From positions 62,001 to 126,000 of the forward strand of contig JAHBSJ010000006.1 of assembly GCA_019639155.1 (NCBI GenBank): a stretch of DNA of 64,000 nucleotides, given 5' to 3'. Position numbers and translations under genes: made by a program. The stretch comes from Acidobacteriota bacterium. GTDB lineage: Bacteria; Acidobacteriota; Blastocatellia; Pyrinomonadales; Pyrinomonadaceae. Below, one piece after another: positions 1,029-6,973 of this stretch. Position 1 is the stretch's first letter. The number at the start of each line of letters is the position of its first letter. The notes beneath the pieces were generated by a model that saw only the letters and a program-made list of their open reading frames with translations, did not search any database and was not told the origin of the DNA.

Positions 1029-1436
1029 TTATGCCCCCATGCTCAGGATCTCTTCGAATTCATCTCTTGTTACTGCGATCACCGAAAGCTGCGACTGTTT
1101 TATCAGCCCGAGATTCGCCAATGCTAAATTCGCTTTCATATCGGCTAGGCCGACCGGCTTTTTGAGCTTTTTAGCAGGTGTCAACTCTACTGCGACCCAG
1201 CGATCGTCGTCGGTTGTCGGGTCTTGGAACGCAGTTTTGGTTACTCTCGCGACACCAACGACCTCTTTGCCGATATTCGAGTGATAAAAAAGCACCTTGT
1301 CGCCCTTTTTCATCTCACGCAGATTGTTCCTGGCCTGATAATTTCGCACACCCGTCCAATCCGTCTGCCCCTCAGCCACAAAATCATCCCATGAATACTT
1401 GTCGGGCTCTTGTTTAACCATCCAATAATGAGTCAT
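1029..1436 (-). CDS. EVE domain-containing protein
   Basis: This 135-aa protein is a complete EVE (PUA/ASCH-like) domain of the thymocyte nuclear protein 1 type. It opens with a YWMVKQEPDKYSW block and continues with WTGVRNYQARNNLR, a GDKVLFYHSN block and a GVARV strand. EVE domains form an aromatic cage and are thought to bind modified bases in DNA or RNA. In bacteria they are often single-domain proteins of unknown physiological role. Length and motif order match the family, with no truncation. It is the first gene of a tight minus-strand group with the 120-aa protein and the permuted ATP-grasp protein. The specific ligand cannot be inferred. Confidence 0.93.
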   Translation of the reverse strand: MTHYWMVKQEPDKYSWDDFVAEGQTDWTGVRNYQARNNLREMKKGDKVLFYHSNIGKEVVGVARVTKTAFQDPTTDDDRWVAVELTPAKKLKKPVGLADMKANLALANLGLIKQSQLSVIAVTRDEFEEILSMGA

Positions 1437-1446
1437 AAGTCTCGGA

Positions 1447-1469
1447 GGTCCGGAAAGTCTGGGAAGTCA
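1447..1469 (+). repeat. Left arm of inverted repeat bracketing the four-helix-bundle gene
   Basis: The segment GTCCGGAAAGTCTGGGAAGTC is the near reverse complement of the tandem GACTTCCCA array at 1901-1943, on the other side of the four-helix-bundle gene. It carries about two degenerate copies of the 9-bp unit in the opposite orientation. Seen directly in sequence; function unknown. Confidence 0.7.
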
Positions 1470-1493
1470 GTTCGATCCAGACAGTTGCAGGCA

Positions 1494-1856
1494 TCATTTC
1501 CGCAAATGCGAAGACAGACTAAACACCATCCGACCAATTTCGTCTAGTTTCTCGTAGATATTATCAAAATCCGCTTGTTCGATATATCTGAGGTCGAGTG
1601 CCAAATAAAGATGCGATTTAGTTTCAGCCACTGATCCAAGCACGATGTTCAGAAAATTGGCAAAATCTTTATCCGTTCTCCTGCCTTGGCCCTCAGCTAT
1701 ATTCGCCATGATCGACGTTGACGAACGTCTGATCTGGCTTCTGAGATCAAAATCCTTTGCAAATTCATTCTTGCGACATAGATCGTAAACTTCCACCGCT
1801 AAGACCCGTGTTTTCTGCCACGCCTGAATGTCCTCAAACCGCTTGAAAGTCGCCAT
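1494..1856 (-). CDS. Four helix bundle protein (23S rRNA-intervening-sequence / S23 family)
   Basis: The 120-aa protein has the family signature: an N-terminal FEDIQAWQKTR-like helix, the FDLRSQIRRSSTSIMANIAEG block at about residues 36-56, a GRRTDKDFANFL segment, then the SVAETKSHLYLALDL helix. The family was first found inside intervening sequences of 23S rRNA genes, and members form pentameric four-helix bundles related to the Avd protein of diversity-generating retroelements. Here it is a free-standing gene between single-copy neighbours. It is flanked by inverted arrays of a 9-bp repeat, which suggests it moved or copied itself as a small cassette. Biochemical role unknown. Confidence 0.92.
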   Translation of the reverse strand: MATFKRFEDIQAWQKTRVLAVEVYDLCRKNEFAKDFDLRSQIRRSSTSIMANIAEGQGRRTDKDFANFLNIVLGSVAETKSHLYLALDLRYIEQADFDNIYEKLDEIGRMVFSLSSHLRK

Positions 1857-1900
1857 TTCTGAATAGCTCCGTGCGTTCTAAAATGATCAGATCGAAAAAC

Positions 1901-1943
1901 GACTTCCAAGACTTCCCAGACTTCCCAGACTTCCCGGACTGAC
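1901..1943 (+). repeat. Tandem 9-bp repeat GACTTCCCA, right arm of inverted repeat
   Basis: Four consecutive copies of a 9-bp unit begin at 1901, 1910, 1919 and 1928 (variants GACTTCCAA, GACTTCCCA, GACTTCCCA, GACTTCCCG), followed by a partial copy. The array ends at the stop codon of the 194-aa gene. Reverse-complement copies occur at 1447-1469, so the array forms inverted repeats around the four-helix-bundle gene. Confidence 0.85.
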
Positions 1944-2527
1944 TACTTCTTCGCCGCTGCCGCCTTTTTATTCAGCCATCTTGCCCAGCGTTCAAGGACG
2001 GGGCGGAAAGGTTTGAACAGTTTTGCACGCATGCTTCCTTCGGCTTGTTTTTCGCCCCAGGCTTTTAAGTTTTTCTCAGCGTACTGCCGTATTTGGGGTT
2101 CGAGTCCTGTCTTTTTCACCGAATGCCGAAGCGTCAAATAATAATGCTGTCCGACGAGCGAAAACAGCAATCCCGCGAGGTTTCCTTTGAAACCGCTTTT
2201 CGCCATCCAACGTTTGAAGAATCCCTCCGTCGGCTGCAGCAGAGCACCCGCCGATATCTCGAACCACGGCGGCTGATTCTGCACACGCGGATGATAAAGC
2301 CCCGGCAGATCGCCTTTCATCGGCATATCAATGTTCTTTAGCCGCGGGTCATTTATAAAATCGACGATCTTTACGCGGTCGATGCCGCGGGTCTGTTCGA
2401 CCGGCAGAAAATCGAGCACCTTAAAGATGGTCGATTCGTAATCTTTCGGGAGGTCGATCGACGCTGCGTTGTCGATCTTTACTTTTGCCTGTTTCGCCGA
2501 CTTCTGTCCGGCGGTTTGTATAGCCAT
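1943..2527 (-). CDS. Hypothetical 194-aa protein
   Basis: No family is recognised. The protein begins with a basic, low-complexity stretch rich in K, A and Q, followed by a folded region with an LPVEQTRGIDRVKIVDFI segment (about residues 41-58). A tryptophan- and proline-containing PPWFEISAG motif lies near residue 86. The C-terminal third is very basic and helical, with LERWARWLNKK at its end. There is no signal peptide, although a LAGLLFSLVGQHYYL stretch near 118 is hydrophobic enough to be an amphipathic or buried helix. The gene stands alone, divergent from lpxC, and its stop codon overlaps the 9-mer repeat array. A nucleic-acid-binding role would fit the charge but is speculation. Confidence 0.75.
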   Translation of the reverse strand: MAIQTAGQKSAKQAKVKIDNAASIDLPKDYESTIFKVLDFLPVEQTRGIDRVKIVDFINDPRLKNIDMPMKGDLPGLYHPRVQNQPPWFEISAGALLQPTEGFFKRWMAKSGFKGNLAGLLFSLVGQHYYLTLRHSVKKTGLEPQIRQYAEKNLKAWGEKQAEGSMRAKLFKPFRPVLERWARWLNKKAAAAKK

Positions 2528-6738: not shown

Positions 6739-6973
6739 TTCACCACAGAGAACACAGAGGACACAGAGAGGAGAGAATGTGAAAGTGTGAAAAAGTGAAA
6801 AGGAATGGCGAACAAACGATCTGTACTAAGAGTGATCGTTGACGCCCTTCTCCCGGAAGCCTACTCTCGAACCGTTCGAAGTTTGTATTTACTGCTTTGA
6901 ATCTTTTTTTCATTTCCACTTTTTCACTTTTTGTCCTTTTCCTCCGTGCCATCCATGTCCTCTGTGGTGAATT
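6739..6973. repeat. Inverted CACAGAG-type intergenic repeat element
   Basis: The arms are TTCACCACAGAG followed by further ACACAGAGG units at 6739-6770, and at 6941-6973 the reverse complement, whose arm also reads TTCACCACAGAG. Inside these lies a second inverted pair (GTGAAAAAGTGAAAAGG near 6786, and its near complement at about 6916-6935). The structure could be a small non-autonomous mobile element or a recombined pair of dispersed repeats. It fills the gap between gnd and the downstream dehydratase and carries no gene. Confidence 0.6.

Follow-up and report, generated by a model that had tools for sequence, protein, structure and literature searches.

The window, by which we mean the whole 64,000-nucleotide stretch of Acidobacteriota DNA analyzed here, comes from a genome of 3.2 Mb (hereinafter G000; assembly 94.68% complete) and contains a cassette in which a gene for an S23-like four-helix-bundle protein is bracketed by short inverted tandem arrays (Table 1). 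Both parts of this arrangement, proposed in the preliminary description of the locus, held up: the right-hand tandem array (period 9, 4.4 copies, 93% matches as determined by TRF) faces 3.5 imperfect reverse-complement units on the left, with an arm-to-arm score of 19.5 in local alignment with one arm reverse-complemented, and the enclosed gene matches the profiles PF05635 (e-value 4.5e-37; 127 bits against a cut-off of 33.8) and TIGR02436 (e-value 4.8e-37; 126.5 bits against a cut-off of 24) far above their cut-offs. Its product has homologues in the PDB (2gsc, 2rld), and searches with Pfam and NCBIfam profiles detected no catalytic domain in it. The window contains three exact copies of GACTTCCCA, where 0.39 would be expected, and each of them belongs to this cassette. 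Compared with the bounds of 1447–1943 given in the preliminary description, the true extent of the cassette is slightly wider on the left side. The left arm abuts the start codon of the EVE-domain gene and the right arm stops 2 nt short of the stop codon of the gene on the other side; the arms thus fill the stop-to-start space of the neighboring genes, placing the cassette within a co-directional gene row. On folding of the gene-strand transcript of the cassette the arms pair with each other (z = -5.0; none of 100 shuffles was equally stable). Elsewhere in the window (6744–6801), two short direct tandem arrays (CACAGAGAA and AATGTGAA) lie between genes, and our detector saw no inverted partner for them.

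Table 1. Coordinates of the S23 cassette, its parts and its neighbors in the window.
Feature	Position	Strand	Remarks
Whole cassette	1437–1940		504 bp; space from the stop codon at 1943 to the start codon at 1436
Left arm	1437–1468		3.5 imperfect units of an inward-reading AGTCTGGGA-type 9-mer; aligned to the reverse complement of the right arm
S23/23S rRNA-IVP-like four-helix-bundle protein	1494–1856	-	120 aa; PF05635 and TIGR02436 profile matches
Right arm	1901–1940		4.4 units of GACTTCCCA, by TRF
EVE-domain gene	1029–1436	-	Downstream neighbor and anchor for site comparison; PF01878, e-value 1.5e-44
Conserved gene, unmatched in Pfam and NCBIfam	1943–2527	-	Upstream neighbor and anchor; synteny in relatives

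Inverted arrays around S23 genes across bacterial phyla

A profile search of G000 recovered 13 PF05635 matches, of which 10 have arm scores of at least 13; in addition, L002 and L010 (score 11.5) have arrays on both sides according to TRF, and L013 on one side only. The units differ between these copies (e.g., AGAAGAC, GAGTTGCA, AAGGATA, GGTGAAAA, and CAGTGG). Our census, which covers 93 of the 103 PF05635 matches in nine genomes (G000, G003, G008–G013, and G018; the 10 omitted are weak, fragmentary, or unlisted), shows flanking arms at most S23 genes: arm scores reach at least 13 at 70 loci, at least 16 at 58, and at least 20 at 46, with 23 loci lacking arms (score <13). Most arms are no farther than about 150 nt from the S23 gene. 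As controls, a score of 13 was reached in 15 of 2000 random windows (0.75%; G000 sample) and by 2 of 244 small ORFs (400-kb G000 sample). A named sample drawn across phyla (80 loci, reduced to 79 by a missing flank) gave arms scoring at least 12.5 at 68 loci, against 5.9% for mismatched cross-pairs and 1 of 79 for the reversed control; its members come, among others, from Acidobacteria, Planctomycetes, Nitrospira, Chloroflexi, Verrucomicrobia, Omnitrophica, Bacteroidia, and Patescibacteria.

Thirty records of cyanobacterial plasmids showed an S23 match, and arms scoring at least 13 flank the gene at five of the six S23 loci that we fetched from them. Three of these six (L440, L441, and L443, on plasmids of Pseudanabaena, Picosynechococcus, and Anabaena) lie inside CRISPR-Cas operons with gene orders such as cas6-S23-cas4 and cas10-S23-cmr3, the S23 genes again being accompanied by inverted arrays. 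This may explain why '23S rRNA IVP' is named in a figure legend on CRISPR-associated proteins in PMC10910872. In Nostoc, two 50-kb plasmid stretches hold six and three array pairs, respectively, one in each with an S23 gene: pNe_5 has several gene-less pairs with GGGAACA-type arrays like those of its S23 cassette, and pNsp_c a single gene-less GGGGAAA pair near an S23 cassette with GGGAAAA arrays.

Chance repeats are ruled out by the random-window, small-ORF, cross-pair, and reversed controls together with the permutation described below, and confinement to the window genome or its genus by the named loci in many phyla and the cyanobacterial plasmids. Our analysis confirms that the inverted arrays at the window locus are real and one case of a general arrangement, in which convergent short arrays (about 4–5 units of 6–9 bp, usually containing GT and G-rich in the inward direction) enclose an S23 gene or a short gene-less loop. 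Beyond what the preliminary description had seen, the comparison brought out the specificity of the unit to the S23 lineage, the gene-less copies, and the spread over many phyla.

With regard to the S23 genes themselves, dN/dS values, where dS is usable, are about 0.08 (L158/L159), 0.03–0.05 (L173/L174/L184), and 0.27 (L153/L156), pointing to purifying selection. Internal stops are seen in 11 of 121 S23 frames (L031, L039, L122, L123, L125, L131, L149, L150, L187, L192, and L194), as expected of decaying element genes or assembly errors. Longer S23-like reading frames without arrays, which account for some of the 23 armless census loci, were found in G008 (L279), G003 (L287), and G012 (L315); these are possibly resident genes derived from the family.

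The array unit follows the S23 lineage

We studied the anatomy of the arms in 83 loci with scores of at least 13. Read inward, GT exceeds AC in 76 of them and G exceeds C in 71; the period that fits best is 7 in 46 loci, 8 in 16, and 9 in 18, and GT is present in 66 of 79 unit consensuses. S23 arms (n=137) and gene-less arms of G018 (n=152) agree in their median of 4.4 copies.

The units are linked to the lineage of the enclosed gene. Similar units occur in 35 of 86 locus pairs with S23 identity of at least 0.6 and in 21 of 1547 pairs with identity below 0.4, in both cases with no flanking protein in common; permutation of labels gave a mean of 0.044, and none of 2000 trials reached 35/86 (L120 and L124 were removed as duplicates, coming from the same contigs as L024 and L019). 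The 9-mer word of the window recurs with the closest S23 relatives in G004, G008, G009, and other Acidobacteria, and units differ between S23 lineages inside one genome. Each S23 lineage thus keeps its own array unit at different sites, and the gene and its arrays travel together.

Presence and absence at syntenic sites

Elements are present in some relatives and absent from others at syntenic stop-to-start gaps, of which we compared four within the genus, each in 12 genomes (the automatic site table misplaced some gap starts, namely those of L431, L064, and L067, and the series rests on other site comparisons read alongside it). At the window site before the EVE-domain gene, an S23 gene with 9-mer arrays is present in G000 and G009, a gene-less 9-mer pair in G008, a gene-less 7-mer pair in G003, and weak pairs in G006 (score 14.0) and G011 (10.5); the gap is about 2–3 bp in G004 and G010, and short, longer, or rearranged in the others. 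The clpP-clpX gap holds an S23 cassette in G000 and gene-less pairs of other units in G007, G009, and G012 (scores 14.5–18) and, more weakly, in G010 and G011, and measures 3–38 bp in G001–G005 and G008. Between the Peptidase and SRPBCC genes, S23 with 9-mer arms is found in G004 and G010 and a single remaining array arm in G000, with a GC-rich hairpin in G006 and no pair in most other genomes. In the fabI-LOG gap, G008 has an S23 gene and both G009 and G010 have 9-mer pairs without a gene, with other units in G001, G007, G011, and, more weakly, G005; the gap is 0–8 bp in G000, G002, G003, and G004. Empty versions of these gaps go down to 0–10 bp in some relatives.

The closest S23 relative of the window copy (G004, 78% identical) lies at another site, and the window site of G004 is empty. 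The mobile cassette envisaged in the preliminary description is strengthened: the same combination of gene and inverted arrays turns up at different sites, and the empty sites for which it advised looking exist in G004 and G010, with G009 occupied. Retention of the gene here by every relative, which the preliminary description named as a refutation, is therefore not observed. Its alternative proposal, that the repeat may serve as a binding site of the protein, is compatible with these observations.

Many gene-less array pairs carry the units of S23 cassettes

Searches with the word AAGTCTNGGAAGTCTNGGAA, allowing up to two mismatches, gave 12 hits in G000, 6 in G004, 26 in G008, 34 in G009, 43 in G010, and 81 in G018, and zero or one in each of the other 14 genomes (reversed control 0–2). 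An S23 cassette with AAGTCTNGGAAGTCTNGGAA-type arms was found in each of the six high-hit genomes (L004, L277, L263, L296, L323, and L024), an association that ignores kinship and in which S23 arms are incompletely collected for 9 of the 14 low-hit genomes. The hits fetched in G004 all lie at the S23 cassette; those in the other five high-hit genomes include pairs of about 90–210 bp without an S23 gene. A second word, GAGTTGCA, gave 24 hits in G003, 15 in G009, 9 in G002, 4 in G000 (at one place), 2 in G001, and 1 in G010, with zero in the remaining 14 genomes. The preliminary description had reasoned that a 9-mer widespread without these genes would speak against a mobile cassette; literally, it is widespread in this way, but its copies lie in genomes whose own S23 cassettes bear this unit.

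A 400-kb sample of G018 contains 73 array pairs (reversed control 1), which corresponds to 182 per Mb, and 54 of these match the arms of the genome's own S23 cassettes (outward control 1 of 73), with mean scores of 23.1 against its own S23 arms and 8.7 against those of other genomes. Most of them (59 of 73) overlap ORFs by less than 20%, in a region with a coding fraction of 0.88. In G009, only 5 of 11 pairs match its own S23 arms, and in 400 kb of G000, only 2 of 3 (reversed control 1); since the detector finds so little in G000, this genome alone would not have revealed the effect. G019, which has no S23, holds a single pair, and two 50-kb stretches of Escherichia coli K-12 hold none. Pairs in G017, which lacks a PF05635 match, count against S23 as the partner of such arrays: it has 13, comprising 11 AACGGAACAAACGAAAT-type hairpins and 2 convergent AGTGCTG pairs (L110–L119). 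Gene-less pairs bearing the unit of an S23 lineage nevertheless populate the genome of that lineage, and they look as non-autonomous copies would. G018 also shows nested pairs (L345, 17653–17874, and others), in which arrays of one unit lie within the loop of a pair built of another.

The gene-less pairs are not deletion remnants of S23 cassettes, as their loops are unlike cassette interiors. Copying of whole elements fails as an account of all families: in G018, members of one gene-less family (GGGTTCA) share loop sequence, but in the two largest families every loop is unique. The uniqueness of these largest-family loops, their dissimilarity to cassette interiors, and the lack of near-identical cassettes at two sites among the 13 of G000 (the best pair being 0.61 identical) count against the reading as mobile elements, as do the 23 of 93 census loci that lack arms, the failure to detect a catalytic domain in the window protein, and the incomplete unit matches in G009 and G000. 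Simple copy-and-paste leaves the unique loops unexplained, and in-place growth of the arrays thereby stays alive as a rival. Here, host replication would make the arrays where they stand, by slippage and by template switching that mirrors the arms, and S23 would merely land in or bind the resulting hairpins. Besides the unique loops, this is favored by the different units that syntenic gaps carry in different species and by a modest signal of mirrored unit order between arms beyond unit sharing (23 of 61 loci at p<0.05 in unit-order permutation). Nevertheless, one genome reuses few units at many sites, mostly those of its own S23 cassettes, the unit follows the S23 lineage to different sites, and some empty gaps measure only 0–10 bp, and we consider an in-place origin unlikely.

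Candidate mobilizing enzymes and the role of S23

Another transposase, for example Y1, might move the pairs in trans with S23 as cargo. In favor of this, Y1_Tnp occurs in 19 of 20 genomes, the sole exception, G019, likewise lacks S23 and holds few pairs, and profile searches detected no catalytic domain in the S23 protein of the window. However, the unit specificity tracks S23, and the Y1 genes have ends of their own kind: 14 of 20 sampled Y1 loci (L392–L411) have inverted ends (control 1.9%) that read as palindromic and REP-like, unlike tandem arrays, and none of the 20 matches an S23 arm at a score of at least 10. RAYT is accordingly disfavored as the mover, and we regard mobilization by such a transposase as distinctly improbable. 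The Y1 genes at L392–L411, whose long inverted ends score as high as 100 (L401), represent a RAYT-like system of their own within these genomes.

It is very improbable that mobility is absent altogether and that the arrays serve the S23 gene itself as operator, terminator, or RNA-processing sites. The paired arms in the folded cassette transcript (z = -5.0) and the proximity of most arms to the gene (within about 150 nt) would fit such a role, but many gene-less pairs of the same unit lie away from any S23 gene, and relatives have precise empty sites. The least probable explanation is telomerase-like writing, in which a reverse transcriptase with an Avd-like S23 would extend the two 3′ ends at a break with G-rich repeats: this would yield the inward G-rich polarity seen as GT exceeding AC in 76 of 83 arms and agrees with the unique loops and the resemblance of PF05635 to Avd (PMC10053308), but profile searches gave no RVT_1 match in seven S23 carriers (G000, G002, G004, G007, G010, G011, and G012), including G010 with its 43 9-mer pattern hits, which excludes a reverse-transcriptase partner as a general need.

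Given the absence of RVT_1 from several carriers and the different kind of Y1 ends, we place S23 as the specificity factor. The window probably holds one member of a family of small mobile elements that end in arrays and have S23 as their lineage-specific partner.

Relationship to known systems

The S23 family was first seen in rRNA intervening sequences. In Coxiella, the 23S rRNA intervening sequence with its S23p ORF is described as about 430 bp long, sporadic, and selfish, with complementary ends that form a stem (PMC4990558). The window cassette resembles it in an S23-family ORF of similar size bounded by complementary ends (arm score 19.5; fold z = -5.0), but differs in its location between an EVE-domain gene and a conserved protein gene, outside 23S/16S rRNA genes, as well as in ends made of short tandem arrays of a lineage-specific unit and in gene-less copies dispersed in the genome.

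REPIN-RAYT systems combine a gene flanked by inverted repeat copies with gene-less inverted doublets of the same repeat dispersed in the genome, several independent types being described per genome (PMC3116915). S23 elements likewise have gene-less inverted doublets that share their ends and are scattered over the genome; however, the enclosed gene codes for a PF05635 four-helix bundle only and not a Y1 (PF01797) tyrosine transposase, the ends are arrays of period 6–10 rather than REP palindromes, and RAYT-type genes of the same genomes end differently. An arrangement like REPIN-RAYT but without a transposase is the best reading of our elements. MITEs are also short, gene-less, and intergenic with inverted ends, and the GGGTTCA family of G018 shares loop sequence as well; but our elements end in tandem arrays, other families lack common loops, and no matching transposase was found.

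The heptameric repeats described from Xanthomonas (GGGAATC) and Nostoc have a period of 7, are G-rich and mostly intergenic, and prefer four units, and convergent pairs number 70 and 75 in two genomes of Xanthomonas (PMC4692102); the text of that article that we consulted mentions neither S23 nor 23S nor four helix. Cyanobacterial heptamer arrays are dispersed and intergenic, and on Nostoc plasmids occur both with and without S23; for Xanthomonas, which has an S23 gene (XCC0516), the likeness is drawn from the description in PMC4692102. Avd and PF05635 are reported to be homologous (PMC10053308), but the window protein differs from DGR Avd in scoring 26 bits against an Avd profile cut-off of 80, and G000 has no RVT_1 match. 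In the passages that we consulted after searches of the open-access PMC library, no mention was found of tandem arrays at the flanks of S23 genes. As it lies outside the rRNA genes typical of the intervening sequences and has neither the transposase nor the palindromes of REPIN-RAYT while appearing to work like the latter, the array-ended S23 element would be a kind of mobile element not recognized so far.

Functional implications

A Xanthomonas S23 homologue is reported to be a pentamer (PMC4990558), and the Avd-related S23 ring is predicted to bind the G-rich arm in single-stranded form by recognizing its repeated unit, with one protomer perhaps reading roughly one unit, as the copy number and ring shape suggest. 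S23 would then bring both arms together, after which host replication or repair enzymes might move or copy the segment, and it could act in trans on gene-less pairs. Insertions into operons would be tolerated because in the transcript the arms could pair and enclose the S23 ORF in a hairpin, in the manner of rRNA intervening sequences.

More tentatively, S23 proteins might generally be unit-specific recognition factors of widespread array-ended mobile elements, each lineage reading its own word via the pentameric ring; such a system would bring under one explanation the S23 genes scattered over many phyla, the rRNA intervening sequences, and the long-known heptamers of cyanobacteria and Xanthomonas. 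Our findings offer a testable role for the S23 family, which carries the label 'function unknown' despite a solved structure (2gsc), and tie it to short tandem repeats that are usually taken as slippage products. They point to a type of element with array ends of a lineage-specific word that codes for no recognizable transposase, and whose specificity code, namely which S23 reads which word, is open to direct binding assays. At the 182 pairs per Mb of the G018 sample, such elements would play a major part in shaping the intergenic DNA of that genome.
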